NCBI RefSeq assembly: GCF_041146795.1
Contig: NC_135184.1
Coordinates: 9,104,967 to 9,168,966, forward strand
Direction of reading: 5' to 3'
Source: Maylandia zebra
Lineage: Eukaryota; Chordata; Actinopteri; Cichliformes; Cichlidae
DNA length: 64,000 bases
This document shows positions 1-48,323 of this stretch, piece after piece. Positions within the stretch are counted from its first letter, which is position 1; each line of letters begins with the position of its first letter. The position numbers were made by a program, and so were the translations under genes. The notes under the pieces were generated by a model. The model ran no database searches, was not told the DNA's origin, and was given only the letters and a program-made list of their open reading frames with translations.

Positions 1-3000
1 CCTGCGACCTAGGCTGGAAATCTGACGACTGTGGAACGTCCTTCTGATATTCGCTGTTGTAAATCCCATTGCAAAGCCTCTGAGAAGGCAACTGCTGGAC
101 GTTAGTCGACTTGCTCAGGTTAGAAGCTACATTTGGATCTGAATGGTCCGGGTACGTGTTGGAATACTCCTCTACTACACTAGAGAAGTCAGGGAACCCA
201 GTGTCAATGTCATTACCTTCAATTATGGACGACCAAATTTGATTCTCCCTTTCATCCAATGAAAATTCAGCAGCAAGTTGCGTCTGCTTCCCCACATTGT
301 GCTGGCACCCATCCTGTCTGAATGCCAGTCGATCTTCTTCCTTCTCTGTCTTCACTGTGAACTGAAGGCTACTGATGTCTACTGCACGCTGGGCAGAGTT
401 AAACGAGTCACTGAACTCTGATGGCTTCTGTCTGGCAACCTCTGGATGGGTTAACTGGTGGCCCTCTTCAAACTGCTGGTTCTCTGGAGCACTAGCAGCG
501 TTAGGGTACTGAACAGCAGAACCTGCAGGTGACAGGTGTTAGGAGACTTCAGGTAAGGGTGTGAAGTTCAATTAAGGTTTAATTCTTGCACAAAACCTAG
601 GTCTTCAACTCACCAATTGGTCCAGCAGAATCACTGATCCATAGAGCCTCATCTGGACTTTCTTCTTTAATTGTGAAGGAAACAGTTGCATCTTCAATCT
701 CAGGAAACTACACAAAAAGGGCATGGATTACCTTATTTGTTTTTCAACTTGAGAACTTCTAAGATATATGTTAATAATATAGAGATTGCAACACCAGAAT
801 CTGCCAAATTAAGTTTTATATTTCACTTCTTTTAGCTTTGTTTTCCCCTCTACAAACAACTTACTAATTATTAATCCACCCTTTTCATAACACAGCTACC
901 TGCCATAAATAGAAACACCTATGGGAGTGGTGTCACACAAACAAAGCCTCAGCAATGAAACCAAAACTATAAGATTAAGAGGTGACATTTCCGCAGCGAG
1001 GTGACATTTATCATATAACTGACACTATTAGATTAACACACAGGTTTTTGATCCACTTTTTGAACTAGTTTATCACCAGTGTCAGCTGCCCATTTTTCCC
1101 CCCATTTTTCTTTTACAATTTGTGAAAAAATATATACAACCACTAAAAGTTTCTGGATTTTTTTTGTTTAGAAAGGCAAACTTTTAATTCTTTTGGAAAA
1201 CAAAATAAAGATGACGCTTTAAGATAAAGTTACCATTTCAATCATTTACAGTACAAAAACAGCAACAGCAATTACTTTAACTGGTGTGTGAAGGCCTAGC
1301 AGAAATACAGTGAGGTCCTTCTGAGCCTCTGATTATGGGGAACTGTGCATAAAAATGCCCATAATTCCTGAAAGGTTAATGTAACAGTTTTGTTAAACCC
1401 CTTCAATTAAAGGCTGAAAGTCTGCGCTTTCACCACATCTCGATTGTTTGATCTAAAATCCACTGTACTGGTGTACAAAACTACACATCTTATATCCACG
1501 TCCAAACACTGTAACTTTTTGTAGGCTTTTCGGAAGTGTTCATCAGTCTGGGTGTGAAAATTTCTGATCACTCTAACATGAAAGATTTTTGAGAATCCCC
1601 TCAATGCAAACTCAACAGATGACCTCACATTATATCTAAGCAGTTTTTAATATGAAGTAGAACTCACAAGTAAATAAATGACTATAAGGGACCTTCTGCA
1701 GAGGCAGCGAAACAGCGCAAAACCACAACACTTCCACCACTAAACTTCACAGATGGTGAACAGTTTTTCTCATGAAAAGCCATCTTTTGTCTGCACCAAA
1801 CATGTCTACTGTTACTCCAGCCATACAGCTCTACTGTTTCTTTATTTTTCTGATGCTAACACTTTGACACTAACAGCTAAAGAATAAATGAACAAATGCT
1901 CAAGTTTTTTGCAAGACTTCTTGTTGCATCAGTCAATCTGCCCCTGGGTTGAACTGACCTTCCACGTGTGGGGGATTTTATCTCATATCATTTGGGGATA
2001 TGTTTGAATTCCCATGCTCACAGGCAATACACGTTTTCTTGTTTTATTTGTTTATTTATTTATTTTTAAATGAACACAATCTTCAGATATTGTCTTGATG
2101 ACAACCACAAACTTCAACAGCAAAGAGAACAGCAGAGCACAAACCTCACAGCTTTCAGCTGTCACTGTTAAAGGAAGCTCAAATCGCAGACGCCTAACCT
2201 GGACCTGATTTTAAGTCTAGGTGTGTGACACAGAGGGGGTAACAAAATAACTCGAGATGCAAATCTTACCCCATCGTAACCACCATGAAAGACCTACAGG
2301 TGCTATTTTGAAGGATTATTGAAATAACTTTAATTTAACAAGGAATAAAATTAACAGTTTGTTGACTTTTCTTCAAAACATTTTTTATCCTTCAATCACC
2401 ATTCTTGCTGTTACAAAGTTATCCCTTAGATGTCACTTCATGGTTGTTTAAAGGCCAGGTCTCCCTTTTAAAACATCTAAATTAAGCGGAGTTACTTTTT
2501 CCATGTAGCTGGTATGTTTTTAAACTGTGTAAACATTGAAACTTGCAGCAACATATTCATTTTATGTATGACTTCTCTAAAAACAAAAAAGTTTGTTTTG
2601 TTTGGGTTTTTTTTTTAAAAGAGCAAATGTTGTCCAAAAGGCAACAATTATTAGAGCATGTAGTAAACACAGACCTTCATATCTCTTGCAGGGTGCGGAC
2701 AGTTGCTCCCCACATCAGTTCCTCTGTCCATGTAGTTTTCTGGTTGCAGAAGGGAAGAAAAATCTCAATTTGAAAGCTCGGGCAGAGGAAAATTAGATAT
2801 TATTTGGAGGGGGAGTAAAATACCTCGAAATTCATTTACAAAAATAAGCAGAGGTTTACATAAAACACACCAGCGGTGGCTTTTTAAATCAAATTCTTCC
2901 TGCGTTTGGTTCTACTTCTACATTTAGATGCACAACACACTGAGTTGTCAGTTGGCACAAACAGTGATGGAAATCTTACCGAATCCTCGCTGCAGCTGCG

Positions 3001-3187
3001 CATTTTTGCTCTCCATCACCAGCAGTTTCCTCTTCAGCATCTCGTTCTCGCTCTGCTTTCGGGATATTTCAAGATGCAGAAACGCACATTTGTCATCGAC
3101 TAGTTTGGATATCTCTGCCACTGCTGCCTTCACCAGAACCTCCATTATTGAGGATAACTGTGTTTGAAAGGGAATGCACGTCGCCAT
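1..3187 (-). CDS. ZNF-A: teleost zinc-finger family protein, 5' part only (partial at left edge)
   Basis: Three coding pieces are visible. Exon 1 (3187-2980) encodes 69 residues starting MATCIPFQTQ with the family helix EVLVKAAVAEISKLVDD, and ends in phase 1 at a gtaaga donor. A middle exon (707-614) encodes FPEIEDATVSFTIKEE, has a tag acceptor and a phase-1 gtgagt donor. A long exon (522-1) follows a ctgcag acceptor and is open to the window edge. It encodes an acidic Q/S-rich linker with VKTEKEED near 350 and an IWSSII motif. No fingers are in view; by comparison with ZNF-D they should lie just left of position 1. The middle exon reads from phase 0 at its best acceptor while exon 1 ends in phase 1, so either a small phase 1-to-0 exon lies unseen in 708-2979 (as in ZNF-D) or a weaker in-frame acceptor at about 692 is used. 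Product is inferred to be a nuclear DNA-binding regulator; no specific name is recognised. Confidence 0.8.
708..2979. other. Intron of ZNF-A with a transposon remnant
   Basis: No convincing exon was found here, although gene structure predicts one short exon with phase 1 entry and phase 0 exit. The stretch from about 1290 to 1860 resembles teleost Tc1-type DNA transposon or MITE sequence, recognised by phrases such as a CACATCTCGATTGTTTGAT-like run and a transposase-like antisense reading at 1628-1407. The rest is AT-rich with short T runs. Confidence 0.4.
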
Positions 3188-7319: not shown

Positions 7320-7693
7320 AGAAATGAGCTTCCTATGAAGGGTGGCTGTCCTCTCGGGTGAGAATTTCAGCCATCTGGGAGGGGCTCAGAGTAGAGCCGC
7401 TGCTCCTCCACATGGAAAGGAGCCAGTTGAGGTGATTCGGGCATCTGACAAGGATGCCTCCTGGGCGCCTCCTGGGCGAGGTGTTCAGGGCATGTCCCAC
7501 CGGGAGGAGGCCCCAGGGCAGACCCAGGACATGCTGGAGAGAATATATCTCTCGGCTGGCCTGGGAACGCCTTGGTGTTCCCCCAGACAAGCTGGAGGAG
7601 ATAGCTGGGGAGAGGGAGGTCTGGGCTTCTCTGCTTAGGCTGCCGCCCCCATGATCCTGCAGCTGATAAGCAGAAGAAGATGGATGGATGGAT
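7320..7693 (+). mobile_element. Rex3-type (RTE) LINE, 5'-truncated old copy
   Basis: The sequence follows the 3' end of the better copy at 16987-17786 almost line by line, from the FLRRV segment through the [17 protein letters not shown] and AWERLGVPP-like regions to the GATGGATGGATGG tail. It has an internal deletion after the first 40 bases, frame breaks and a stop, so it is non-functional. Rex3 is an RTE-clade non-LTR retrotransposon of teleosts whose short tandem GATG tail is diagnostic. Confidence 0.8.
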
Positions 7694-8306: not shown

Positions 8307-9112
8307 TCAGTCCACATGCAGTTTAAGATGCAGTTTCAGGATGCTCATCTGGTTAAAACTCTTTCCACAGATCTCACAGCTGAAAGGCTGCTCTGTGATT
8401 TTCTCACACTGGTGTCTCTGAAATATATCGAAGCTATCAAAGCTTTGGCCACAGTTCGAGCATATGAAGCAGTTTTGCGTGGCAGACTCCTCGCCGCAGT
8501 TTCCCTCACGGTCAGTTGACGAGTTCATGTTAAATCCAAAAACACTCACTTCAGGAGTCCGGTCATTCGCTGTGTTGTAATCACTCACAGCCACCTTGTG
8601 TATGATATGCTGATTGTGTGGCTCAGGTGTGAGAGTTATATCAGAGCTGCTGGGTTGCATGCCTAAGACAGAATACTGGTCACTGAGCATCATTTCTTCA
8701 TTTTCTTTGTCTAGAAAAGGCAGATCCTTGATCGGCGACGTATATCCCTGCTGCTCACTCGCGGCTCCGGCAGCAGGACTGAGGTGATACTTGACATCTT
8801 GTAGAAGTACACAGACAGTTTGTTCAGGGGCATCGCTGCTCTTCTCAAGCCCAGACGTCCACAGCTGACTTTGATCTGGTGCTGCCGTGCCATTATCAGT
8901 CCCTACCTGACCTACAGCCTGAAAATTCTCTCCATTAGGCTCCAGCTTTACCATAACAGTTTCCTCCCTGGCCGTCTCACCGTATGTGGGGCCTGGTAAG
9001 GGTTCCTCAAAAGGTGGTAGTCCATTCTTAGATTCTGCCAAGTTCTGCAACAGTTGGTTATCAGGAAGTGTAAACATCATGTGCTGGGGCTCCAGCACAT
9101 CTGGGTTTTCTC
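8307..9112 (-). CDS. ZNF-B exon 4: linker, degenerate finger, final C2H2 finger
   Basis: Terminal coding exon. The linker carries [10 protein letters not shown] at about 8948 (SUMO-type consensus) and SQLWTSG further on. The first finger, [19 protein letters not shown], has both cysteines and one histidine but then H-x-C instead of H-x3-H, so its zinc site is altered. The second, [19 protein letters not shown] plus LKLH, is canonical. Stop TGA follows LHVD. Two in-frame acceptors 12 bases apart are possible (starts at 9112 or 9100). Confidence 0.8.
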
Positions 9113-12100
9113 CTTTCCAGAAAAAACAAGAACAGACGTTAATTAGCAGATAGTGTTAGCCAACAAATTTTATACACAATAGTGCTGGTTGTTTTCACAT
9201 ATGGATCCCATAAAGTGGAAAATACACATTTAATGGGGATATAGAAATATGATCAGCAAACCAAAAAAAACTATTCACGGCTTTCGCCGGGCTGCCACGA
9301 ACCGCTCCACAGGAAGCTGTATCACAGTTGACTCCTGGTTTCAGCATTGATAAACTTATAATATTTATCATGACCAAAACTAAATGAATTATACTGTTAA
9401 TTTGCTGTTTTTCCTAATGAATTTCTTCAGAAATAAATTTCTTACCATGTTGTGAAACCTGTGTGTCTCATTAGGAAAAAAGTACGAGTTTTTAAGCTTT
9501 AACAAAAATGCACTATTCCAGCTACCAAAACGTGTACCTGCTTTTTTCCAATCATCTATAATGTTATAGAGAATTTCGATACTTTTGCCCCTTCCTTACC
9601 ATTTCTGTGTGTCTTCATGTGGCCTTTGAGGCTACTCTTCTGATTGAAGCACCTCCCACAGATGTGGCAGCCGTACGGCTTCTCGCCGGTATGAATTCGC
9701 AAATGCCTTTCAAGGTGTCCGGCTCGCTCGAAGATCTTGCCGCAGTACGAGCAGATGAAGCACTTCTTTGGTTTGATTACCTGAAAAGATCTGCTTCTCC
9801 TCTGATGCACATGATTCATCAAGGTCTCTGTCATACTGTGTAAGCCTCCTTCTTGTGAGATCATAAGAGGGTCTGAGGATCCAAAGGGCGTTTGGGAGAT
9901 CATGGTGTTTTTGAGTTCACTGTACGGTTTTCCTGGGAAAGAGAAGGTGCTACAAGAAGCTTCAGCTGGTGGAGAGAGTAACTGAGCCATCCCGGGGAAC
10001 GATGGCATGTTTTGCTCCGAGCTGCTAAGAAATTCTGTACTGCCCATCTCAGGGTTGTTTTGTAGTCTGGGCATCCACTGCTGGCTGTCTCTCTCAAACG
10101 CTGCGAAGGTGTCGCCGAGGGTTTCAACTCCTTCTCTTGTCTGCTCGTTTCCCCCGTGAAAGAGCGGTGGCGGTGTGATAGTCTTCTCTGCAGGCTCAGA
10201 TTTAACCTGTACAGGTGTTGGCAGAATGTCCTCACTCTTAGGTAGAGCATCTTCAACGATCGCTTCTTCAGGGCGATGCGCATCAATAGGTGGATTCACC
10301 TCAGGAATCAGTTTCTGCTCAGCCACTTGGATCTCAACAGGTCCTGACTGAATACCTGTTTAAGCAGAGAGAGGAGGAAAAATAAGGTAATTCACCTTTT
10401 AAACATTGACGATTTAGAGTTTATTCTGGTTTCAGAATGGATCATCTTATATTCAATCACTACTCCTCCAATCCAGATGTCAAAGTATCTATAGATATTT
10501 GACCCCGTTGATTCAATGTTGGGTAAAAAGGTGCTTAGACAAAAAAGAAAGAAAAAAAAAAAAAAAAAGGCTCTTGCATGAATATATGCAAATAGGTGAA
10601 TGAGGCTTGTAACAAGAAACCACACTGAGTTCTTAAATAGACTAGAGAAGCACTATATTAAAGTACCAGACCATTTACAATTTACAAGTCAGTCAGTCCA
10701 CCATCTCTCCAAGACCTCCACAAACCAACTACAACCCATCTGTCAAATCATCAGTGCCACTGCTCCAAGTTCCAGTCAGTACCTTCCCCATTGTTTCAGC
10801 ATTTTCAGTGGTGGGCTTTATGCCAAATTGCTTTTAACTATAACTAATTTGTTTTAAAATATGATTTAAATTGGGTGGCACCGTGGTTAGCACTGTTGCC
10901 TCACAGCAAGAAGGTCCTGAGTTCAATTCCACCATCAGGCCAGGGTCTTTCTATGTGGAGTTTGCATATTCTCCCTGTGTTTGCGTGGGTTCTCCAGCTT
11001 CCTCCCACAGTCCAAAGACATGCAGTTAGTGGGGATAGGTTAATTGGAAACACTAAGTGGAGGAAATATGTTTTTAATGGTGCCAGCCTCATCTGAATTA
11101 AAGACTAGATTTCATTTAAAGCACACTTAAAGACCCTCCAAGAATGTGGAAAAATTTATATTAAATATAGGTTTCCTGTCCAGACTGAATATAAATGACA
11201 CAGATGTTTTTGGCCAGAATTTGGCCTGTGGACACCTCAGGACCTCCAGGAGGAACTGGAGAAAACATTGCTGGGAAAATGATGCCTGAAAACACTCAGC
11301 TCACTATCGCTGCAATTTCAGAGGTGTGGATGAAAATGGTGGTCTAAGGAGCTTGGAAAGAAAAGCGTCTGGACTTCTTTAGGTTGCTTGAAGACGTTTC
11401 ACCTCTCATCCGAGAAGCTTCTTCAGTTCTGGTGGTTGGACTAAGGTCTGCTATGAAGTCTACTGTAGTGTTCCAGTTATTTAATTAATGGATAAGTTCA
11501 TCAAAAATAAGCAAATTTCATTATTCAAAAGTCATTTTAGTCATTATTGAGGCAAAAAAAAAAAAAAAAAAAAAAAAACAAACAAAACCAAAGATTAAAC
11601 TGGTACATGTTCTCAAACTTGAGTCAGGTGTATGTCTGTGGAGTTTTGTGACCTCCAGTTTTTTGTTCAGCGCTTCTCAGAGTGTCAGTTCACACCAGAA
11701 ATGAAGTGTTTAGTCTTGTGGGTGGGGGTTCGTTGATATTGAAAACTGACCAGATTCTCGCCTCCCTAATCTGCTCTGTGCAACTTGAGGCGTCTTCATC
11801 AAAAATAGACCCGGCTCCATTTTAAGCAGCACTGAGACCTCAAGTCACTCCTACAATGCTTCTGAATCACACAGCAGCACATCTGGTGGAACTGTAATCA
11901 TCATTTTGAGTGGGTGCAATTAGCTCCAGAGGCTTCAGAGCCAGAACATGCAGCCATGTTTGGTATATTCACGGGGTTAGCAGGTTTCAACCTCACACTA
12001 CAGAAATGGTATAAAACTGCAGAGCGAGCCCCACTGGCAGCCACAGGGAAACTGAGTGTAGAAACTGCAATTAAAATTAATCATTTTGAATTTGTTTATT

Positions 12101-15100
12101 TATTGGGTGAAAGGAATATTCTGCTCACCCCTAAGTTAAATGTCAAAAAACTCATTTTTTATTGTTAATAATAACAACATTTGAGACCAAAAGTGATCAG
12201 TTGGTATGGAAAATAATGCTCCTGCTTCTTTACCATCAGCAGTTAAAGCTTTAAGCTGTTTAAAACACAAGTAGTTTAAGCTTTAGAAATTCTTTCCTTT
12301 AAACACCCGCAGGGAAGGAAACTTGCGACCCCTGCTTGACAATAATCATGATGTCGTCTATGAAGACATCTGGAAACGGTTTGGATTTGACGCCACACTC
12401 GAACACAAAGTTATGGTGGCTTACCAACTATGCTAAATACTTTGAGGGAACCCCTGAAATGATTTATTGTTTCATCTGTCTGCAAACACAGAGGGTCATT
12501 TTTGTCCTCTGTGTTGCTTGCTATGCTCTGCTAAGATCAGCAGAAAATAAGCTGAAAATTGGTTAATTGCTTAAAGGTTCGAAGGGCACTGAACATCTCA
12601 ATAGTGTCACGTTACATGCATGAACTGGGTTTCAACCTCGGTAACTAATATCCGGTGGATCTTGTACAGAGCCCGGTGGTCTTGCTCTGGGTAGCACAAA
12701 GCTAAAAATTGGCTCTACAAGGCAGGAAGGGGGACTCTGCTGTTCACTGAGACCCTTTTAAGTCACCTTCCCCTCCACTCACTCACTGTCGTCACACCTA
12801 ACCCACATAATTTTTCCTGTGCTTACTGACTTCAAACTGTGAACCAAGACTCAGAGACAGAAGATAAAAATAACACACCACAGCGTACAACTAGCTACTA
12901 ACGTGTCATGTGAGTGACATGAACCTTCAAATTAAAAGATAAAATTACTGCTTCTATATGTTTCATATAAATTACATATAATTTTAAATGTGTCTTTAAT
13001 CTTTCATTCATTCTTATAAGTAAAATCTATAATACTGTACGCTGGCAGAGAGCCAATGACCCCAGGCATCCAAGTTTGATCCTCCACAAATCCGTGAACC
13101 TCCCTAATCCTGCCCTGCTGAAGAATCGTTGAGCAATGTAGTAATTCCCCACCAACCAAACAGCCACCGGTCCTGACCTCCTTCAGTACGATAACAGAGG
13201 AGGATACTGCCTGAGTGCACACACCATTATGCAGCAACACCCTGATTTACATGTACCTCCAAAGTACTGGAGACCTCAAAACTGCCAAGTGTAACACAAA
13301 GTCTTTTGGCCCTTCTGAGAGTGACAATGATTGTGCAGTTACTGAAATATTTGAGCATGTACGACAGATGTTTTCACAACTTTTTCTCTGCTCATGTTCA
13401 GACTGTTAGAAAAGCAGAGGAGCAGCTTAACTCATTCACTGCCATTGACGTCTATAGCCGTCAATTGCAGTGAATGAGTCAATGGGTTTAACTCATTCAC
13501 TGCCAATGGCTGGCAGTGAATGAGTTAACTGGGTCCAGGGCTGCTTTCACCCTGAACCTTTTTAGTCTTTGTACAAAACGAGCTGCATGCGAGGATGTAG
13601 ACAAACGGTCTTTCATCTGTCAACGTGAAGTCACACTCGAGTTAGTTTTGGTCCCATACCTGAATGGCATTATCACCTAAAAATCAACAGTACTTCTGCT
13701 AGTAAGAAACCTTCTGAAGCAGATTTCCTGTTGCGTTAGAAGTGAGAACAGGCAGCTTCGAACCATTTTGTGACAGGTTCCCTTTTAGCGTTGTATGAAG
13801 TTCCTGTGTGAAAATAGCTCAAACCTTTATGATAAATATGGCGCTAAATGTAAGGGTCATATTTATTTCTTTTTTGTTTTGCCAAACCTGCCACCAGTAG
13901 GGAGAGCTGTCAATCAGTTTGTAGTTCTTCAGAACAATGGCTTAATCTGACAGAGCCGTTGCCTAGGACAGAGTTTGTGACTGTGGTTGATGCTCCTGAA
14001 AAACTATAATAAGAAGCTTTTGTGTTTGTCTTTGTGTCTCAAATCATCTAAACGAGCTTTCTGCACTAACCATTTTGGTCGCTTCTGAAAAGCTAATTGG
14101 TCGACATATTGTTCTTATACAAAATCTGTTTGTTTCTTTGTCTCCAACTATGCTTAAACAATCATGAGTTGAGCAACCAAACGTGGAGGACAGGTACATC
14201 TAAAGATGGAAGCAACATGGAAGATAAAAGTGAGGAGAAAACATGAATGACATTTGGTGACTTCAAGTGACTATGAGTGGGGCAGGACTCCAACATGAGA
14301 GTACGGGACCAATGAGAGTACAGGACCAATGAGAGTACAGGAAACTGTTGACTGGCATACAATCTTAGAGAGTTACCAAGGCAACCAGAACCTGGAATGT
14401 CAGCAGGTGAGCAGCTGTCAGCTTCACAGCAAAGTGCAACAAGCAAAGTGCTTTCAGCATGAACAAAGTTTATCTCTCTATCAAGTATATCATGCCATCA
14501 TGTTGCCTAGCAACCACCAAACAATAGTTAGGTAGGTATAAATGATCAATTATTCTCATCTATGCACCTATAACACCTTTTAAAAGTTTTAAGTTCACAA
14601 TAACATCTCATTTAGATCCACAAAGACTTATTCGGGCATGTCCTGTTACTTAGGAACCACCTAGCAATAGGCTAAAACGATCAATTTTTAGTATTTATTT
14701 ATCTACGACACCTATCATGATTGGACTGTGTTCCTGCATTCAAGAAATATCTCTAAAATTAGAAACACCCTGTCTCAAAGTGATGCTGAAAAACTTCTAT
14801 GCTCAACTATAGTAATTCATTTACAGGCTTTCCTAAAACATTACCTCATTACTCTCAGGAAAAAGTTATTTGTTATCCTACTTACAATACTTTCATGTTA
14901 CTCTGTAAAATAGCTGAAAAACTCTGTCTCATAATCACCATTTAACATTATACATACTCTCCTCACATGCAAGGTCTTGAAGAATCAGGCCCAATATAAT
15001 CTTAAAGACCTTATAATACGATATCACCCCAACAGAGCACGTTTCTGGTTCTTAGGGATTAAAAAGTAGAATAGGAGGCAGATCCTTCAGCTTTCAGGCC

Positions 15101-18100
15101 CCTCTTCTTCTCTTCTTAAATATTTCCTCTTTGATGAAGCATATAGTTGGGGCTGCTGAACCCTCCCTTTTTTTAATACTGCAATAGCTTGCTCATAGGA
15201 GCATAGGCATATATCAGCAAAAAAAGAAAGGAGTCATGTGTCTATACTTGCACCCTCAGAATAGTTTGCTTGTTCAGTTGTTGAGTGCTTGAAAGCATTG
15301 AAGATGAACACTGCCTTCATTTCCACAAGCTTTAACTGACCAAGTGTTTCACTGATGAGAGCTGGTTACAATCCAACTTAAAGCAACAAACCAAAAACCT
15401 CATAGTAGGAAGCATTTTACTTACATCTTCTGTGAATCTTTGTGTGCTCCTTGAGGCTGCATTTCTGATTGAACCGCCTCCCACATATCTCGCAGCGGTA
15501 TGGCTTCTCACCAGTGTGAATCCTTTTATGACGCTCGAGATGCCCCGCGCGCTCGAAACATTTGCCGCAGTACGGACAGATAAAGCCTTTCTTAAACATC
15601 AGCCTCTTTACCGTCCTCCTCCGTGCCGTGTTGTACGCATTGCGGTACAGACTATAACCCAGTAACCCACGACCAAAGTGGTTCTGCTGAAATCCACCAG
15701 AGCTGCTGCAGGACACGGCCAGCCCACTGTCCAAAGACGATTCGGGAAGACACGACAGGGAGTTCTGTCCTAAACGTAAATAATGAGAGCTGTTATGTCC
15801 AGTCTCATTTTGTGTCGTCGATCTCCACTGTCCACTTTCATACAGAGGCAGCTCTTCTCCTGGTTTGTCGGACTGTCTGCTGGCCTGTTGATTTTCCTCC
15901 TCCACAGGTTCACATTTGACCTTCACTTCAGGTACAGACAGAGTGGCGGGTCCATCATCAGCATGCACATTTTCAAGAGAGTTCTTCACATCACCAGCAC
16001 CACCCTGGCTTTCTGCAGAAAGATAAACATGCATGTTATAACTGAATTAAACCATCACTAACTTAATTCCAAAACAATTAGAAGCCGGAGGAAGTAATTT
16101 CCCCAGGATGATGGTGAGATATGTAAAATGACAGAAACAAACCAATAACATACATTAAAGAGTTGTAACTTTAATTCTTCCCCAAGATGAGAGTCAAGAT
16201 AGACATTAGTTGAATGCCATTTGTTCATCTGATTTTGTGTTTACACAACTTTTGATCTGCATTTCATGAAGTTTAATGGAGAGGTGAAGCAGTGGCAAAG
16301 GAAGAACTTGTTAAACTTTGGTCTGTTATTACGTTCTAAAAGTTTGAAAAACAGAACATTGGTCGTGGCAGAGTATGGACTCTGCACGCACCACTTTAGT
16401 TTCACATTATTCAAGTTTTGAAATCAGGTCCTTGGTAAAACTTGCAAAACTGTTACATGGCAATATCTCCAAACACTATGCACCATGCGTGAGTTTAAAA
16501 CTTTTCACAAGGTGCACAGATTTATTTTGGACCTCATAAATAGCAGAGCTAAAAGTGTTAAGTGATCCGCCTCAACAAACCAGAAGTTATTCTTGTGAAT
16601 GACGTGTAACTAATGAGATCTTGGAGAAAATGTAAATATGCCCTTTCGGATTTTGTTCAAGAATCTAATCAATCCTCTAATGATCGTGTTTCACTACCTA
16701 AATTTGGCAGGTACTTACATAGTGCTTTCATACTCTAAACGAGCATTAAACATGCTTTTTACTACAAACCTCATTTAATTCTATTTATGTACCAAATCAC
16801 AACAACAGTCGCCTCAAGGCACTTGATATTGTAAGGTAAAGAATCTACAGCAATTGACAGAAAACCCAAACAATGAAATGATCCCCTGTAAGGAAGAATT
16901 TCTGGTAGAAACAGGCTCGGTGGGGCGGGGCAGTCTCCCATAACCACACATAGTGAGTGAAAATAGGTGAGTGAAGAACAAATACTTCTGTTGGCTTCAT
17001 CGGGTGAGGGCCTCCAGCTCGCACTGGAACGGTTCGCAGCCGAGTGTGAAGCAGCGGGAATGAGGATCAGCACCTCCATATCTGAGGCCATGGTTCTCAG
17101 CCGGAAAAGGGTGGAGTGCCCACTCCGGGTCGGGGATGAGTTCCTGCCCCAAGTGGAGGAGTTCAAGTATCTCGGGGTCTTGTTCGCGAGTGATGGGAGA
17201 AGGGAGCCGGAGATCGACAGACGGATTGGGGCTGCAGCTGCAGTAATGCAGATGCTGCACCGGTCCATCGTGGTGAAGAGGGAGCTGAGTGTAAAAGCGA
17301 AGCTCTCAATTTACCGGTCGATCTACGTCCCTACCCTCACCTATGGCCACGAGCTGTGGGTAGTAACCGAAAGAACGAGATCGCGGATACAAGCGGCAGA
17401 AATGAGCTTCCTCCGAAGGGTGGCTGGCCTCTCCCTTAGAGATAGGGTGAGAAGTTCGGCCATCTGGGAGGGGCTCAGAGTAGAGCCGCTGCTGCTCCAC
17501 ATCGAAAGGAGCCAGCTAAGGTGGTTCGGGCATCTGACAAGGATGCCCCCTGGGCGCCTCCTGGGTGAGGTGTTCCAGGCATGTCCCACCGGGAGGAGGC
17601 CCCGGGGCAGACCCAGGACACGCTGGAGAGATTATAGCTCTCGGCTGGCCTGGGAACGTCTTGGTGTTCCCCCGGATAAGCTGGAGGAGGTGGCTGGGGA
17701 GAGGGAGGTCTGGGCCTCTTTGCTTAGGCTGCTGCCCCCGCGACCCGGCCTCGAATAAAGCGGATGAGGATGGATGGATGGATGGATGAAGAACAAATAC
17801 TCAACTTTGGCCTATTGTAGTATAACTAAGGGAGGATTCGGGGTTAACTGATCCAGCCCTAACTCTACGGTTTACCATAAAGGAAAAGTTGAAATGTAAT
17901 CTTAAAAATAAGAGCTGGTTCCACAGAGGATGCTTCCAATTTTACTTTTAAACATCCTAGGAATCACAAGTAAGCCAGGAATCCGAGAGACAATTGCTCT
18001 ATTGGGGTCTTTAAGATAAGACAGGGCCTGATTATTCAGACAACCCCTGCTGGTCCTGGCAGATGGCCGACCTTCCCTGAGGACATTCTGCTGGAGGTTT

Positions 18101-18979: not shown

Positions 18980-20173
18980 AGACAATACTATTACTTTTTT
19001 AAAGTAAGATGACAAATTACTGTTATTTACTTGCATTCACAAACAAAAAATAATATTAATTTTACTGGTTAACTGTTTGATTAATTTCCGACTTCTCAAA
19101 AGGAGTCCAGTGTGCCAGCTCCAGTGTGAGTAATCAAATGTGAATTCAGTCATTTTTTGTTTTAAACTTGTTTTTGACAGATTTCTAAAATATGTTCTTT
19201 CTTGTTTTTAATGGCAGTTAAGCAATAAATACAGTAAGCACAACTGGTGCACTGAACTCATGCCCGTGTAAGTAATACTGTTTATTCTGACCTATGTGAG
19301 CAGGCGGGAGAGACTCATGAAACAAACCAAATATTTGTACCAAATGTTCTTCAAAATGAAACGAATCACTCAAAGATCTACAACAAAGTGAGAAAATAGA
19401 TTTGTGTGTTTCATATCTGTCCCCAGAAAAGGTCCACATGGCATCTGGACAAAAATCTATTTCTAAGTAACTTCTGCTAATATCTTATCGCAAAGAAGAG
19501 AAACAATTTTGTAATGCTTACATTCTTTTCTTTACACTATATAATTGCAAACACGCCAGCTCATTAAAAAGACCTATTTTGGTCCTCATGTCCTGCAGCC
19601 AAAAGATAAATGATCCAAAATGACCACTGGAACGATTTCCCATATTATTGCAGAGCAAATAAAAGCCAAAGCCTTGTGCTGGGGGATTTTTCACAACGTG
19701 GCAACATAAACATTTGTTCTTAAATTATTATTTTTTTCTCTAGAATTTAATAAAGTATTTCTCTACCTTTACACAACCCCTTTATAAAAGTTTGAAAACT
19801 GAGATTTGTGCATTTTCGTCCCTGACAAACCTTGCATCAGTGTACCAGTAAGTTGGCACCCCTCAGCAAAGAGGTGCCAGGTTAGCACGGCAGCTACAGG
19901 GTGTTGAGGTGTGGTTTAGCTCGGGTCCAGCTCACCATCTCTCCCGTGGTGGTCGGGTCTCAGGGTCACCGCCTGCTGGGTTACTCTCAGCTCGCCGTGC
20001 AGGAGCTCGATGTTGCTCTTCAGCTTCTTGATCTCGTTTTCACGCTGGCACATTTCCAGCCGCAGCACCACCATGCCATCCTCCACAACTTTGGCGATTT
20101 CTGCCACGGCTGCTTTGGACAAGGCATCAATCACGGAGGCGATCTGGGAGCGCAGAGCAACGCTGCTCAACAT
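8307..20173 (-). CDS. ZNF-B: modular C2H2 zinc-finger protein with three tandem linker-plus-finger exons
   Basis: Proposed join of four exons: 20173-19936, 16012-15425, 10355-9600 and 9112-8307, giving 795 aa. Exon 1 encodes the family helix ([15 protein letters not shown]) and ends in phase 1 at gtgagc. Exons 2 and 3 start after acceptors ctgcag and aaacag, end at donors gtaagt and gtaagg, and are both phase 1-1 with lengths of 588 and 756, each divisible by three. Exon 4 enters in phase 1 and ends at a TGA. Every exon therefore joins in frame. Exons 2 and 3 each encode an acidic linker with a VK-x-EP motif and then two C2H2 fingers; exon 4 encodes a linker, one degenerate finger and one canonical finger. 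Introns hold Rex3, L2-like and SINE-like repeats. The alternative is that the three finger exons are alternative terminal exons, or that some are skipped. Likely a nuclear DNA-binding regulator; no ortholog name is claimed. Confidence 0.8.
9600..10355 (-). CDS. ZNF-B exon 3: linker plus two C2H2 fingers (symmetric phase 1-1 module)
   Basis: This exon codes for about 252 residues. [10 protein letters not shown] lies at about 10203 and SQQWMPRL follows. The fingers are [19 protein letters not shown] and [18 protein letters not shown], joined by the canonical TGEKPY linker. Without splicing at 9600 the frame would run on to a stop at 9556 with a low-complexity tail, while the gtaagg donor after THRN is strong. 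The finger pair closely matches that of exon 2. Confidence 0.85.
10868..11075 (+). repeat. SINE-like teleost interspersed repeat with tRNA-type promoter boxes
   Basis: Begins TGGGTGGCACCGTGGTTAGC (A-box-like) and continues through CCTGAGTTCAATTCC (B-box-like), then the familiar stretch ending near AAAGACATGCAGTTAGT and GGTTAATTGG. This is a very abundant teleost repeat. A more diverged copy is at 49868-50060. Its exact Repbase name is not certain to me. Confidence 0.65.
13427..13528. repeat. Two adjacent hairpins made of one TTAA-ended inverted repeat
   Basis: The 18-base arm TTAACTCATTCACTGCCA at 13488-13505 is followed after five bases by its perfect complement at 13511-13528. A longer, imperfect pair with the same arm lies at 13427-13478. 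The arms alternate forward-reverse-forward-reverse and both outer ends are TTAA, which suggests a short MITE or fold-back element; the class is inferred. Confidence 0.75.
14725..15160 (+). mobile_element. L2-like LINE reverse transcriptase remnant
   Basis: Plus-strand reading gives [17 protein letters not shown], a signature also seen antisense at 18347-18556 ([17 protein letters not shown]). Further on a [14 protein letters not shown]-like stretch corresponds to the C-terminal part of the same polyprotein. There are many stops and gaps. Confidence 0.6.
15425..16012 (-). CDS. ZNF-B exon 2: linker plus two C2H2 fingers (symmetric phase 1-1 module)
   Basis: This exon codes for about 196 residues after a ctgcag acceptor. 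[11 protein letters not shown] lies at about 15917 and SGQWRSTT follows. The fingers are [19 protein letters not shown] and [18 protein letters not shown] with a TGEKPY linker. It ends AGAAGAT then gtaagtaa: an ideal donor that, if not spliced, places TAA in frame two codons later. Confidence 0.85.
16777..18245. repeat. Pair of inverted L2-like LINE 3' ends with nested Rex3
   Basis: At 16785-16930 the sequence reads ACCAAATCACAACAACAGTC (minus-strand LINE end). At 18060-18245 the same end occurs in the opposite orientation, from GGAGTTTTTCCTTTCCACTG to CAATATAAAGCACC and CAAATTGAACTGAAC. A further minus-oriented copy with a TTCAA-repeat tail is at 45973-46230. The two ends here form an imperfect inverted repeat about 1.4 kb apart, interrupted by the Rex3 insertion. 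Confidence 0.6.
16987..17786 (+). mobile_element. Rex3-type (RTE) LINE, 5'-truncated, with target-site duplication
   Basis: It encodes the C-terminal part of a reverse transcriptase: [54 protein letters not shown] and [14 protein letters not shown], open up to PPRPGLE and a stop. The 3' tail is GGATGGATGGATGGATG. The 15-base string TGAAGAACAAATACT flanks it at 16972-16986 and 17787-17801, a clear target-site duplication. The 800-base element lacks the catalytic core, so it is a dead-on-arrival, comparatively young insertion in ZNF-B intron 1. Confidence 0.9.
18250..18556 (-). mobile_element. L2-like LINE reverse transcriptase fragment
   Basis: Minus-strand frame reads [20 protein letters not shown] followed by [20 protein letters not shown], the well-known palm/thumb segment of L2-clade LINEs in fish, then frameshifts. 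It abuts the L2-like 3' end at 18060-18245 but in opposite orientation, so this is a rearranged or nested set. Confidence 0.75.
19936..20173 (-). CDS. ZNF-B exon 1: N-terminal family helix
   Basis: Begins [10 protein letters not shown] and encodes 79 residues before a phase-1 gtgagc donor. Core [15 protein letters not shown] is followed by a charged heptad-like helix ([20 protein letters not shown]), predicted to be coiled-coil and probably used for dimerisation. The same exon type starts ZNF-A, ZNF-C and ZNF-D, and in all four the donor is phase 1. Confidence 0.9.
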
Positions 20174-23340: not shown

Positions 23341-26300
23341 CTATCTTCCTTGCAGGTGGATCTCTTCATGTATTTTGAGGTTACCAAGCGCCGTGAAGCT
23401 TTTACCGCACTGCCTGCAGCTGTACGGCTCCAGCCCGCTGTGGAACCGCTCGTGTCTGAGGCAGTTGTCCTGCCTCGAAAACATCTTACCGCAGATTTTG
23501 CAACTAAACGGCCTCTCCCCGGTGTGCACGCTTTGGTGCGTCCTCAGCCGGGTCTTCTGGGTGAAAGATTTCCCACACTCGAGGCACCTGAAGCGTTTGG
23601 AGGGTTGGTGGGTGGCTATGTGTTTCTCCAATTGAAACAGGCACGAGAAACTCTTGTTGCACAAAGAGCAGACGTAGACTTTCTGATTAGGTCTGCACAC
23701 CTTCATCACCCTTTTGGCTTTAAAGACATCTCTACTCTGGTTAGGAGCGTCAGCATTTGAACTTGCTGAGATTGCTGCGGCTGTTTCCACGTGAGGCAGA
23801 GGGAGTAACGGCTCAGCTCGCAAGCAGTCACCCTGACTGCCTGCAGGGGGTGAAATACATCTGAACTCTTTAGTATGAACAGACTCTAAAGCGATGCCTC
23901 CCATACACGCGGGGTGCGTCTCTACCTCCGCTCTCACTGGCGCGCCTGCAGTTTCCTCTGTGGTAGACAGTAAAGAATTATAGGAACTTTCTGTGTTGCT
24001 CTGAGGAGAATACTGATCAGCGTCAGAGGGGAGGATCTGCATGTGCTGCTGCAACGCCACAGGGTTACTCTCAAACATGCTACAAGCAGGCCACATCAAG
24101 TCATCCTGCTCTGCCTTGAAGCAAACACCTGTTCTCGCCGTGTTGTCTTCTGTTTCGATGTTAGCAGGTTCATCCTCTGGCTCGTGCTTCACCACTGGCC
24201 AGATGTTTTGGCTCTCTTCTGTCACATTTTGGGCAGTTTTTGGTTGAAGAGACACTGCAACCATGTCCTGAGCTTCCTTTTTGTCTGCATTTAAAAGGAT
24301 GACAACCGTGTTAACACTCGATTTCAATTCTCAACCAACAAATGCAAGTCAACAGAGCATCTAACCAGTTTCACCAGTAGAAGTGTTTTAGTGCTGCTGT
24401 TTACCGGAAACGGTTAGACATGTCAGCCACAAAAGGATGCTTCCTGATAAACTCAGGTTTTACAAAGTTTAGAAAGTCCCTGATATACTGCAATAAACTG
24501 TTTTTATCTTCATAAGTTCTTGAGTTTTATCTGACTGATATATTGCTAAAAAAGATTCAGTCGGTTTAATCTGAAAATGAAATGAATGTCAAAGAAAATG
24601 AATTTCTTTGATTCATCGAATTGGACCAAGACATAATAAAAAAATATCCCAGCAGTTAGAAAGACAGTGTACAGAAATTTATATTTAACTATCTTTATAA
24701 ATGAACTACAAAGACTAAAATAAATTGTTGGTAAAGGATTCAGTCACCTATAACCTATACCTGTACATACAAATTTCGGTTGTTTATGTTTATAGGACCA
24801 CCCTGTGTCTTCCTTTTATATTTTATTTTCCCTTGCTGTAAGAGCTCTGTAACATCGAAATTTCCCATCGGTGGGATAATAAAGATTTATTCTATTCTAT
24901 TCTATTCTATTCTAATGCACTCTTGAGCCTTAACCTCACATCAGATGACCTCAGTGGGTCAGATGATAGGGTTAGGCAAGGTCTCAACGTGGTTTCACCT
25001 AAAACATCTGGAGGTAATGACCTTGGCTCATGTCATGAGGAAGTGAAGAAGCCCCTTGGATGAGGGGTGAAAGGTCTAAATGAAACAAAAAGAAATGGAA
25101 TGTGGGGCCTCCCTGCTGCTGCATTGGTGGTTCTTTGTGTCCGGGGATGGGCGTCCAGGTACGCACTGGCTCACTCCTGGTGGCTGCTTGTTGGGGCCTG
25201 GAGCCTGGGGCTCGCTTGGCCTCTGGGCTTGGGGCTCGGTCACTCTGGCACAGCTGGCTGCCGGCGGAGCTCACGGGCACGTCACTACAACCCCCCCTGG
25301 CTTCTGCTCCGCAGCTGCTGAGTGACCCCTCATCTGGGGCTCTCCTCAGCTCTTTCCGGGAGAGTGGCACGGCTGCCCCTCTGTTGGTCTTCCTTAGTCT
25401 CTTGTGCTCTGAGGGCCTCTGGATGTCTGGAGCCTGAATCTCCTCCATACCTGCTTCATGCCCTGGAGGCTATGGCCCCCCACACCCTCTAGCAGGGACC
25501 TTTAAAAGGGACCTTTTAAAACAAGTGCGTTCATGCTCACAGGTGTACACACGGGTGCTCACACACACACAAACTACACCCTTTTTGGCTCCTACCTCAA
25601 AGCACACTGTGTGCTGTCGATCCTACGTGCTGCACAATAATGTTTAATATTTAGTATTTACTGTTATATTCACATAGATCATCATGATGTTGTTTATTCT
25701 ATTGCTCTCTTTTTTTGCTTGTTTTCTCTATTTTTCTTTCTCAACAGGTGATCCAGGTCATTGATATATGTATTTTTTGTCTGTTTGTTTTGTTGGTTTT
25801 TGTTTTTTGCCCTTTATCACAGTTTCTCTTCCCCACTGTTTTTCTTTCCCTACCTCTCTTTCTCCCCTTTCATTTCCCCAGTGACGTCTGTCCCATGTGT
25901 AACAAGTGAAAATAAAATAAAATTAACACTAAAAACAAAGTGAATCAAATAGACCAATACGGCAGGGCCGGGATGGTCCATTTGGTAAAGTAAATCCTTT
26001 GGACAACTTTCTTGGCCTTTAGACAATAATTCTGATCTCAAAAGAACCAAACGGGACAGGCGCAAAAAAAAAAGTCCAGTAGCTTTCTCCTTAGACTGTT
26101 ACTGCTTGACATAAGCAGGGCATCCTCCATCTGTGCTTTTAAGTCTGGACTTTAACTTCCCTTTACTCTTTCCATTTGAAATGGATTTTCAAATGAGGAG
26201 TGGAATCACCATTTTAAATGTTATTAGTAAATCGTGGGTTTTTGAAACCATTTACTTATTTCTATTTTTTCATATTGAGTTTAAAAAAAAAGATTTTGAA

Positions 26301-27080
26301 AATTAGTTTTTTAATTTGGAATTCGAAAATAGTTTTTGAAATGAGGTTTTTATTGAGAGTTTAATTCTTTTTTTGTGAAATTCATATAAGTATTTATTGA
26401 TGGATTACTAATTAATTTTGAAAACTAGATTTTAAAATAGTGTTTTTATTTAAAATAAACTACTGAAGTAATGTATTATTTAATAATGTTTGAATAAATA
26501 CAATTATTTCAAAAATGAATTTACAAATGCAGAATTCATTATTTAAGCACAGAATTCTTTGTTTTGATGCGTGTGGCTCTTGTGGTCCTCCATTAATCAA
26601 AGCAACGTTTCAGTGTGCTTTATGAATACATTTCACTTACTAATGATTCATACTTCAGCCGAACCTAAACTTGAACCATCACAACATGACAGGGATGATC
26701 ATTTATGTTCTAATGTGCAGTAAACCTTTTTATAAGCAAAGGAAGTTAAAATTTGAGATTTTTTTGAGTAAGGTTCGTTTAGTCGGTTCCAGATGTTGCC
26801 GTTTCTTACCCGTTCGGAGCACCAGTTCCTCGGCTGTAGTCTGCGTATGTTTGGCTTCTGTAGCTGTGCTTGCGGCAGCTTCTTGAGCTTTCTTGAGCTC
26901 AGCCTCTATCAGCTTCAAACTTGCTCGGAGCTCCTGATTCTCATCTTCCCTCCGACTCAGCTCCAGGCGCAGGACCAGACTCCCGTCTTCCACCAGCTTC
27001 GTGATTTCTGCCACCGCCGCCTTCGCCAAGACGTCCATGATGGCTGCGACCTGCGCAGGAAACGACGAGGGAAAAGACAT
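23341..27080 (-). CDS. ZNF-C: two-exon C2H2 zinc-finger protein with four fingers
   Basis: Join of 27080-26810 and 24284-23341, 404 aa. Exon 1 begins MSFPSSFPAQ, carries DVLAKAAVAEITKLVEDG and a long charged coiled-coil helix to residue 90, then a phase-1 gtaaga donor. Exon 2 follows an aaatgcag acceptor and begins DKKEAQDMVA. It has a WPVVKHEPEDEP motif at about 24189, DDLMWPACS, a Ser-rich linker, and four fingers near the C-terminus: CSLCNKSFSCLFQLEKH, CLECGKSFTQKTRLRTH, CKICGKMFSRQDNCLRH and CRQCGKSFTALGNLKIH. Linker TGERPF lies between fingers 2 and 3. Stop TAG follows LQGR. Likely a nuclear DNA-binding regulator. Unlike ZNF-A and ZNF-D, no small IKEE exon is needed for frame. Confidence 0.9.
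24285..26809. other. ZNF-C intron with a LINE tail and a GC-rich likely repeat
   Basis: 24816-24915 is the 3' end of a LINE/SINE, with AAATTTCCCATCGGTGGGAT and then a TTCTA pentanucleotide run. 24930-25900 contains a GC-rich block (25090-25440) followed by CT- and T-rich sequence ending in AAAATAAAATAAAATT. I believe it is an interspersed fish repeat, and its open frames on both strands are not protein-like. The rest is AT-rich. Confidence 0.45.
24816..24915 (+). repeat. LINE/SINE 3' tail with (TTCTA)n microsatellite
   Basis: The segment ATTTCCCATCGGTGGGATAA followed by TAAAGATTTATTCTATTCTA repeats is the familiar 3' terminus of teleost non-LTR elements. The rest of the element is not recognisable upstream. 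Confidence 0.6.
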
Positions 27081-27234: not shown

Positions 27235-27337
27235 CATAATGATGATTATAAATCTCTCATAATAAACGGAGCAGTGTTCTCTAATGTGTCTTATATATAT
27301 ATGTATATATATGTGGATGTGTGTATATATATGCGGA

Positions 27338-27410
<73 letters not shown>

Positions 27411-27728
27411 ACCCAGCACGCCCCTGCGGGCGGTTTATCCTTCAAGCTCGGGTCCTCTACCAGAGGCCTGGGAGCTTGAGGGTCCTGCGCAGTATCTTAG
27501 CTGTTCCCAGGACTGCGCTCTTCTGGACAGAGATCTCCGATGTTGTTCCCGGGATCTGCTGGAGCCACTCGCCTAGCTTGGGAGTCACCGCACCTAGTGC
27601 TCCGATTACCACGGGGACCACCGTTACCTTCACCCTCCACATCCTCTCGAGCTCTTCTCTGAGCCCTTGGTATTTCTCCAGCTTCTCGTGTTCCTTCTTC
27701 CTGATATTGCTGTCATTCGGAACCGCTA

Positions 27729-27819
<91 letters not shown>

Positions 27820-27903
27820 ATAGATGTATATATGTATGTATATATAAAGACACATTAGAGAACACTGCTCCGTTTATTATGAGGGATTTATAATCATTAT
27901 GGC
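27235..27903. repeat. Long inverted repeat enclosing two TA tracts and a LINE fragment
   Basis: The left arm (27235-27292) and right arm (27847-27903) are inverted copies of about 58 bases differing by one 3-base indel and very few substitutions; both share CGGAGCAGTGTTCTCTAATG in opposite orientation. Between them lie a TA/TG-rich tract (27293-27407), a non-LTR retrotransposon fragment (27408-27735) and a second TA tract (27736-27846). The whole starts about 155 bases upstream of the ZNF-C start codon. Confidence 0.85.
27408..27735 (-). mobile_element. Non-LTR retrotransposon polyprotein C-terminal fragment
   Basis: Minus-strand frame is open and reads [20 protein letters not shown], then [19 protein letters not shown] and [20 protein letters not shown] up to LKLPGLW and a stop. 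I recognise this as the C-terminal tail of a LINE polyprotein that is very common in fish genomes; the clade is not certain. Only this 3' piece is present, with TA repeats on both sides. Confidence 0.7.
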
Positions 27904-45433: not shown

Positions 45434-48323
45434 ATGGAGAGCTGCGACTTCCAGAGTCAGCTGCTGTCCGTCATGGAAGTCCTGGCCAAGGCGGCTGTAG
45501 CTGAGATAAACCGGCGTGTGGACCAGAGCTGCACGGTGCTCAGGCTGGAGGTGAGCCAGAGCCGGCGGGACATCGACCTGCTGAAGAGCAAGTGTGAGGT
45601 GATGGAGGCAGAGCTGAGGAAGAGCCGGATGAGGGCCAGGAGAAAAGGTGGGGACACCTGCCTGAGAGATGCTGAGGAGTCACGTCTTTGTTGTTTATAA
45701 CTGACAGTTTTGTGTGATCTTCTCTCTTAGTGTTTAACAATCCATCAGCGGGGAGATTCTCTCCTCTGGTCAAAGTAGTTCTCAACAAAGAAACTCAGAG
45801 CTCACATTGGGACACACCGGTGGAAGCTCAGGCTCCAGATCAACCCCAGCAGGTAGGATACGGCTATTATACCAGTGCACCATATTATCCCATTCATAGA
45901 AGTTCCAGAAGTGAGAGTGAGAGACAGAGCCTTTAACTAGAAGAGCCCAATCCCCTTGTGGAACCAGCTCCCAGACTGGGTTCAGTTCAATTCAATTCAA
46001 TTCAGTTTTATTTATACAGCGCCAAATCACAACAACCGTTGCCTCAATGTGCTTTATATTATAAGGTAGACCCTACAATAATATATACAGAGAAAAACCC
46101 AACAAGCATATGACCCCCTATGAATGGCAACAGTGGGAAGGAAAAACTCAATTTTAACAGGAAGAAACCTCTGGCAGAACCAGGCTCAGCGAGGAACCAG
46201 TTGCTTTAAGGGAGTTTTTTTTTTTTTAAACCTATATCCTTAAGATAGAAACACGGGAAAGTAAATTAGAATATATGTAATAATTATTTTATATTGACTC
46301 GTAAGTACAAAACTTTATAACTTTGTGATGTTAACCTTATTTAACCTCATTGTAGATGGGCTAGAGCTCTACTAGCACAACTTGCATATAAGCACTGATG
46401 CATTTGCTTGACCACGCAGTGCATGTGTCATCTTATTTAAGCACTAACCCTGAGCCTGCTGTTGCAGTGTGCTGAGGCCGTGGAGCTTGCTAATGGGCCT
46501 GATCACATACGGATCAAAGAGGAGTGTGCAGAAGAGGATATGTGGAAAAATGATGCAGAGGACAGACCGAGTGAGTCCACACCTTTAATAGTGAAGAAAT
46601 AAAACAATGTGATGTTTAAGAGGGACTTTTCGTTCAAGCACAAGGAATACTTCACTTTACTCAGATAAGCTGTAAAGGTAAATAAATGCACTGTTTATAT
46701 ACAGGTCATAAGATGAGAAGCCTGAGTCTGAGTACAAATTAATATGTATGTGTGCTAATGTGCACCAGAGCTGATGCTACACACATGGTTCAGTTTACAG
46801 ACAAATTATTGTCTAGGTTTGCAGTTTAACAGCATTGCACTGAATTCAAAGCCCAGGATATGATCTGATAAGAATTACAACTATAAATTAATTTCAAATG
46901 AGCCAAATTGTTATTTGCCGACTATAAATCAGGGATGTCAAACTCAGAAGCCAAGTGGGTCAGACCAGTGAAACTTCCCTTTCTATTGGTGCAAAGAGGT
47001 TTAACTGCCCATTTAATCCCTGAGATATCACAATATGAGGAAAAAGAAGCACAACTTTACCTTTACTTTCAATATATGATAAAGAAATGCTGCTCTGCTT
47101 AATAAAATAATAGTTTAATTATTACTTAATTACATTGGTGTAATATGGATAGCCACAGGGAAGAGCTTTAATAGTAGGGCAAGCTGTCAAATTTATGAAA
47201 ATACAGAAATATATGAAAATAAATATGAAAAATTTACACCCTCCTTTACATTTTCCAAAGCTGTCCAGTGGGGTGACTCTGGAGACTTGGCCTTATGTTT
47301 GACACCTTTGCTCTAAACGATTAAAGGTTTTATTAAAGGCATCTCTCTGGTAATGTGCTCTCTTTAGTCTCTGGAGCCGAGCATCAGCCGTATTTCGACA
47401 CAACAAAACCTGCCCAAGGCGACAGCTTTGCGGAGCTTTACCACTCGGCTGAAAACCCGGCCCTCTCTGAAGATCTGGTTTCCCAAGTAGACGGCTACAG
47501 CATTTTCCCAGAACAGCAGCTGAACAGCGGCCAAAATGATATCGAACTCGTAGTGAAACACGAGAAAGAGGAAGAGGCGGATGAGGACGCAGCTCCACTC
47601 GGTTCAGCCCACACGTTTGTGACAGAGACAGCTGAGGGGCAGCTGTGGCCATCCAGCGTGTGCAGAGACACGGGGGACCCAGGTGTCCCGTACACCGGGC
47701 AGCAGTTTGAGCAGATTCCTGCTGCATTTGCATCTTCAGCCCTGTTGCATTTGGAGGATGTGGCACCCAGAGTTCACTCTGTTGGGAAATTTAATTCTGT
47801 TGTGCTGAGTTCCGCACGAGTGAAAAGACGAGGCAGAAGTTTGGGATGTAAGAGGCCACAGTCAGAGGAAGGACAAAACTCTGCATCTCAGATTAACTCC
47901 ACAGATCCCACCTTGATTCCTCAACAGTTACAGAGCTGTACTCAAACGAGTAATCCAGACGAGGGCCAGACTGGGCCGAACCCCGCAGGCCCCTTCGCCA
48001 CACACAGAGTTGGAGGCAGTTTGAGCCTGGCGAGGAGGATGAGGACGCCCTGGAGGTCCGGGCTCGGCGAGAAGCGGTTCAACTGCACGTACTGCGACAA
48101 AAGCTTCACCAGGTTCAGCCAGCTCAAAGAGCACCTGAGGAGTCACACGGGCGAGAAGCCGTTCAGCTGCATGCAGTGCGGCCGGAGCTTCACCAAACAG
48201 TGCAACCTCATCAGACACGCGGTGGTCCACAGCGGGGAGAAGCCCTACGAGTGCTCGCTGTGCGGGAAGTGCTTCACCCAGCGCTCTAGCCTCAAGTCTC
48301 ATCAGAAAACAGCACACTTATAA
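45434..48323 (+). CDS. ZNF-D: four-exon C2H2 zinc-finger protein with three fingers
   Basis: Join of 45434-45647, 45731-45852, 46468-46570 and 47368-48323; 1395 bases, 464 aa. Exon 1 starts MESCDFQSQL and holds EVLAKAAVAEINRRVDQ plus a coiled-coil helix. Exon 2 (phase 1 to 0) encodes VFNNPSAGRFSPLVKVVLNK. Exon 3 (phase 0 to 1) encodes HIRIKEECAEEDMW. Exon 4 has an acidic linker with ELVVKHEKEEEADED at about 47556 and EGQLWPSSV, a basic stretch (VKRRGRSLGCKR) and three C-terminal fingers: CTYCDKSFTRFSQLKEH, CMQCGRSFTKQCNLIRH and CSLCGKCFTQRSSLKSH, linked by TGEKPF and SGEKPY; the last ends H-x4-H. Stop TAA; an AATAAA lies at 48584. It is the only member of the family here on the plus strand. 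Likely a nuclear DNA-binding regulator; no ortholog name claimed. Confidence 0.93.
45973..46230 (-). mobile_element. L2-like LINE 3' end with (TTCAA)n tail
   Basis: CAGTTCAATTCAATTCAATT leads into TTTATTTATACAGCGCCAAA and TCACAACAACCGTTGCCTCA, then AGGAAGAAACCTCTGGCAGA. It is the reverse of the LINE end seen at 18060-18245. It lies inside ZNF-D intron 2. Confidence 0.65.

Follow-up and report, generated by a model that had tools for sequence, protein, structure and literature searches.

Introduction

A minus-strand locus of the cichlid Maylandia zebra, here called ZNF-B, raises the question of how a zinc-finger gene comes to hold three exons in a row that each encode a linker followed by C2H2 fingers. 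The usual account of C2H2 genes is growth through fingers added within one exon. The locus lies in a 64,000-nucleotide stretch of contig NC_135184.1, the whole of which is referred to as the window and supplies the coordinates used here. A sequence-only reading had proposed that the gene grew by repeated duplication of a complete linker-plus-finger exon. With moderate confidence, we favor a more restricted history, in which ZNF-B is a single gene with four exons and belongs to a clustered C2H2 family of fish genes that open with a long-helix exon, an internal finger exon was duplicated long ago to give exons B2 and B3, and B4 is the terminal exon.

Exon structure of the ZNF-B locus

The exon bounds, the lengths of B2, B3 and B4 (588, 756 and 806 nt) and their GT donors and AG acceptors were found where the sequence-only reading had put them, and so were the phases, with all three finger exons entered in phase 1 and B2 and B3 left in phase 1 (Table 1). 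When exon 1, B2, B3 and B4 were spliced in silico, an open 795-aa frame was obtained on the minus strand, and all introns of this model are phase 1. The exons of ZNF-B are real as sequence features, and we infer that all three finger modules are contained in one main product of 795 aa.

Table 1 Features of ZNF-B and of related genes in the window.
Feature	Position	Strand	Description
ZNF-B exon 1 (B1)	19936..20173	-	holds the start codon and a helical N-terminal region of 79 aa; donor gtgagc, phase 1
ZNF-B finger exon B2	15425..16012	-	VKCEP linker and two canonical C2H2 fingers; ends in T before donor gtaagt
ZNF-B finger exon B3	9600..10355	-	VKSEP linker, two canonical C2H2 fingers, donor gtaagg
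ZNF-B terminal finger exon B4	8307..9112	-	acidic VKLEP linker, one non-canonical and one canonical finger, stop
B2 segment similar to B3 in DNA	15417..15593	-	blastn; just upstream of finger 1 to 8 nt beyond the donor
B3 matching segment	9592..9768	-	blastn
Gene A exon 1	26810..27080	-	same helical region, phase-1 exit
Gene A finger exon	23341..24284	-	VKHEP linker, four canonical fingers; with exon 1, 404 aa
Gene C exon 1	45434..45647	+	same helical region, phase-1 exit
Gene C finger exon	47368..48323	+	VKHE linker, three canonical fingers; 464 aa for the gene when two small exons are included
Gene D helix exon	2980..3187	-	profile match; remainder would fall beyond the window

The stop-to-stop frames of B2, B3 and B4 measure 209, 267 and 282 aa, respectively. 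Among 300 simulated 12.5-kb intron-like sequences the longest frame had a median of 125 aa and a maximum of 214 aa; the frames of B3 and B4 exceed the longest frame of all 300 simulations, and that of B2 falls within the simulated range. Scored with a splice matrix, the donors of B3, exon 1 and B2 ranked 4, 7 and 16 among the 710 GTs of the minus strand between 8000 and 20500. Both donors that had been called strong are present, although that of B2, whose -1 base is T, is good and short of outstanding, and ranks lowest of the three donors in ZNF-B. The CpG values in 500-nt bins were highest in the exon 1 bin (0.87), with the B2 bin next (0.74) and then one over a repeat (0.72), and we regard this profile as uninformative.

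B2 and B3 as ancient duplicates

The finger regions of B2 and B3 share 42 of 52 residues, whereas the other pairs compared, each over 51 positions and with gene C outside the comparison, share 23 (B2/B4), 24 (B3/B4), 23 (B2/A), 22 (B3/A) and 20 (B4/A). Taken singly, the first fingers of B2 and B3 agree at 22 of 25 positions and neither agrees with any other finger, those of gene C included, at more than 14 of 25. The second fingers agree at 17 of 25, compared with 13 of 25 between the second finger of B4 and each of them, and 14 between B3 and the third finger of gene C. At the DNA level, a blastn comparison of B2 against the B3, B4 and gene A loci gave one significant match, to B3 over 177 nt at 74% identity; a second B2/B3 match covered 16 nt (E 0.46). 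A Nei-Gojobori (NG86) estimate over the 52 finger codons yielded a dN of 0.14 and a rough, saturated dS of 3.1, indicating that the duplication is old and that both finger pairs have been constrained. The fingers of B2 and B3 are shown to be under purifying selection.

The resemblance extends to the exon border. In an alignment anchored at the donor, 45 of 60 exon bases, 5 of 6 donor bases and 11 of 34 intron bases were alike, and behind the last finger both exons have GTAAG at the same codon (tgt aag in B2, ggt aag in B3). This shared position favors an internal exon copied along with its donor over two independently formed last exons. For the linkers, the alignment score of B2 and B3 was 59 against a shuffle mean of 32, with 3 of 2000 shuffles scoring as high. 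Among the ten linker pairs tested, low counts were also obtained for A/C (16/2000) and B3/A (31/2000), so this weak similarity is not limited to ZNF-B. Since blastn gave no DNA-level match between the B2 and B3 linkers, the copying of the whole exon is argued from the weak protein similarity of the linkers together with the shared borders. Judged by these comparisons, B2 and B3 are clear ancient copies of one another.

B4 gave a different picture. Its linker scored inside the shuffle range against both B2 (1023 of 2000 shuffles as high) and B3 (533 of 2000), and it was similar to none of the four other linkers tested. Its fingers are as distant from those of B2 and B3 (23-24/51) as the gene A fingers are (22-23/51). 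The regular finger pair that had been attributed to B4 was not recovered by the C2H2 pattern, which found one canonical finger of two; the first finger keeps both cysteines and the first histidine, with a lysine in place of the expected last histidine. In Pfam, zf-C2H2 passes for one stretch and the related zf-C2H2_4 for two. Duplication of a whole exon is supported for B2 and B3, on the evidence of fingers, donor site, phase and weak linker similarity. For B4 it finds no support in either the linker or the finger comparison, so the proposal that the three exons arose by repeated copying is not borne out. The reading had itself named unrelated linkers as the outcome that would count against it, and this outcome was found for B4 and not for B2 and B3. 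Likewise, B2 and B3 are closer to each other than to the other family exons, whereas B4 is not. B4 may be an older relative of the two, and it is assigned to ZNF-B by splice sites and proximity alone.

Direct repeats at 7320-7655 and 17398-17744, which are 91-92% alike in two aligned blocks, flank B2-B4. We rejected them as the route of the B2/B3 duplication, being far more alike than B2 and B3 and lying outside all three exons. Recombination between them could remove all three finger exons. The repeat at 17398-17744 overlaps a 263-aa frame at 16967-17758 (+) that looked reverse-transcriptase-like by eye and had no match in Pfam.

A local family of helix-exon C2H2 genes

A profile built from the helix exons of ZNF-B, A and C was run on the window. 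It recovered its three source exons and a fourth, assigned to gene D, and three further matches had E values of 3.5 to 5.6, one of them inside the B3 fingers. Phase-1 exit is common to the four helix exons. They have a KAAVAEI core, and the alignment of the three source exons holds 20 invariant columns. The exon-1 peptide was predicted as a single helix over residues 2-71 with a mean pLDDT of 91, from an input of three sequences only. No Pfam family scored above its cut-off on the helix exons. Searches of viral contigs with the exon-1 peptide and of prokaryote genomes with B3 returned no confirmed relatives, as expected of a fish gene; in a PDB search B3 had 151 matches, of which the 60 listed are other C2H2 proteins.

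The linker-plus-finger exon is not peculiar to ZNF-B: the neighbors A and C also carry a VK-x-E linker ahead of fingers, and all five finger exons (B2, B3, B4, A and C) combine such a linker with phase-1 entry. A and C contain one finger exon each, compared with three candidates in ZNF-B, which otherwise shares the helix exon with a phase-1 donor and the VK-x-E finger exon. A phase-1-entered exon with a VK-x-E linker and fingers is hence the local pattern, and the oddity of ZNF-B is that it has three.

Between the helix and finger exons of gene C lie two probable small exons (45731-45852 and 46468-46570, +), the second with a further psi-K-x-E motif, IKEE. Adjoining gene A exon 1, at 27260-27890, long inverted repeats are formed by a pair of AT-rich repeat tracts separated by about 330 nt. 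Elsewhere in the window, a partial RhoGAP domain at 38469-38759 (-; Pfam E 8.5e-11) perhaps belongs to a gene extending further on the minus strand, and a weak finger-profile match at 34375-34569 (+; E 0.003), without a match in Pfam, is probably due to chance.

Linkers and VK-x-E motifs

The reported VKxEP motif is indeed present in all three ZNF-B linkers. The motif was chosen post hoc, after being noticed in the linkers, and it arose in 0.16-0.56% of shuffled linkers (5000 shuffles each), compared with 9-20% for the looser psi-K-x-E. The description of the linkers as acidic applies to B3 (net charge -10) and B4 (-24) but not to B2, whose net charge is 0. A synergy-control motif has the pattern P-x(0-4)-[VI]KxE-x(0-3)-P. 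When the linkers of B2, B3, B4 and gene A were compared with it, all except that of B4 agreed.

Exon skipping and the B2-B4 junction

The lengths and phases had suggested that any finger exon could be skipped freely. The reading frame is indeed preserved in every exon combination, but each combination forms a new junction codon. Because the last base of B2 is T and the first two of B4 are GA, an in-frame TGA forms when B3 is skipped. The predicted products are 795 aa with all exons, 599 aa without B2, 347 aa with B4 only and 275 aa without B3. The stop arises with the B4 acceptors at 9112 and 9109 (three bases in), whereas the acceptor at 9100 (cag, 12 nt in) reads through; free skipping of B3 with B2 kept was rejected for the first two acceptors only. 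As for the proposed products of one, two or three modules, B4, B3+B4 and B2+B3+B4 are possible in principle, while B2+B4 is excluded with the acceptor originally chosen. A product with B2 alone could come from the junction stop or from a retained intron. The case illustrates that matched phase by itself is insufficient for free exon skipping.

T is the sole base able to begin a stop codon, and B2 alone ends in T among the seven exons of the local family with a phase-1 exit. By equal base counting, a T followed by a stop-making pair is roughly a 1-in-20 accident. According to the usual junction rule for mRNA decay, a stop in last-junction position escapes; no further junction would follow that of B2 and B4, which places the TGA outside the rule, and the 3' untranslated part after it would be long. 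The TGA might even act as a splicing switch, in which inclusion of B3 would give a three-module regulator and its omission a complete one-module competitor that shares the DNA preference and, for want of a later junction, would escape junction-dependent decay, but we consider such a role very improbable.

Alternative arrangements of the finger exons

An arrangement of alternative last exons, as in Drosophila lola, would have the helix exon joined to one of the three finger exons, which would then end the protein. All three acceptors accept the same phase, and genes A and C each finish with their finger exon. A TAA stands two codons beyond the B2 donor, so B2 could also serve as a last exon; retention of the intron would end the protein at 277 aa after B2 and at 345 aa after B3. 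An ATTAAA lies about 240 nt past the B2 stop and about 320 nt past the B3 stop, while AATAAA and ATTAAA are both absent within 1.5 kb downstream of B4, where the variants TATAAA, AGTAAA and CATAAA occur. However, ATTAAA is frequent locally (16 sites across the 15.5 kb scanned) and such hexamers are uninformative because the sequence is AT-rich. The similarity of B2 and B3 also includes a donor at the same aligned codon and stops there, and last exons need neither feature. We therefore regard alternative last exons as rather unlikely.

Improbable, too, is an arrangement of tandem genes, in which B3 and B4, or B4 by itself, would be separate transcription units whose helix exon was lost or whose start exon went unrecognised. 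The four helix exons in the window make the family a clustered one, the 5-kb intron ahead of B3 offers room, and B4 has diverged. Against this, the helix profile gave no significant match between B2 and B4, introns 2 and 3 included, and its single match in this interval up to E 10 lay in the B3 fingers (E 3.5). Both B3 and B4 also carry AG acceptors (unscored) behind pyrimidine-rich stretches and in the right phase, and only 487 nt separate the two exons. That B4 is a decaying remnant retained only as untranslated sequence is most improbable, for despite its non-canonical first finger and a linker unmatched among the four others, its 282-aa frame is longer than anything simulated and VKLEP persists along with a canonical last finger.

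Proposed function of the four-exon gene

Under the favored model of a single four-exon gene, an internal finger exon would have been copied together with its phase-1 borders, VK-x-EP linker and donor, giving B2 and B3. The predicted helix would probably join subunits and oligomerise the protein. B2 and B3 share the first-finger recognition helix RAGHLER, and the second helix is nearly identical. Their fingers would probably recognize the same short site twice, with variable spacing between the copies, and the VK-x-E motifs would probably act as SUMO sites that dampen cooperative activation; such damping would matter for the type of protein that has two equal reading heads. B2 and B3 point to another route of growth than fingers added within an exon, namely a linker-plus-finger exon copied whole, with both finger sets under strong selection. 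Such a duplication may yield a protein that recognizes one site in two separated copies.

Comparison with known systems

Our literature search found nothing on this helix exon or on a gene so built; most subscription journals lay outside the search, and we make no claim of absence from print. Several known systems share single traits with ZNF-B. The ZAS/HIVEP (Schnurri) proteins have two far-apart modules, each made of two consecutive C2H2 fingers plus an acidic part and a Ser/Thr-rich one, and single modules bind GGGGNNNNCC-type sites (PMC3048431). Separated finger pairs are likewise seen in B2 and B3, where the B2 linker has no net charge; compared by description, ZNF-B differs in that the linker stands ahead of the fingers, a single phase-1 exon makes up each module and a helix exon opens the gene. 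Basonuclin (BNC1) resembles ZNF-B in its finger pairs spaced along one protein, but the third module of ZNF-B has one canonical finger. Basonuclin is not known to have a helix exon or a series of VK-x-E linkers.

In the FiNZ-ZNF genes of cyprinids, the finger exon is preceded by a short exon for an N-terminal domain (PMC10547256 and PMC11620358). FiNZ is a cyprinid sequence of 28 aa with one finger-array exon behind it, whereas ZNF-B has three finger exons and a predicted helix of about 70 residues. Drosophila lola joins a common N-terminal region to several zinc-finger C-terminal exons (PMC1947980). It combines a BTB domain with alternative last exons; no BTB match was found in ZNF-B exon 1 with Pfam, and B2 and B3 have donors. 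For steroid receptors, PMC3373386 describes synergy-control (SUMO) motifs that damp activation from several sites. The same pattern occurs in the B2, B3 and gene A linkers, with B4 outside it and SUMO modification predicted from the sequence alone. Taken together, ZNF-B is a modest variation that combines known traits in its own way.
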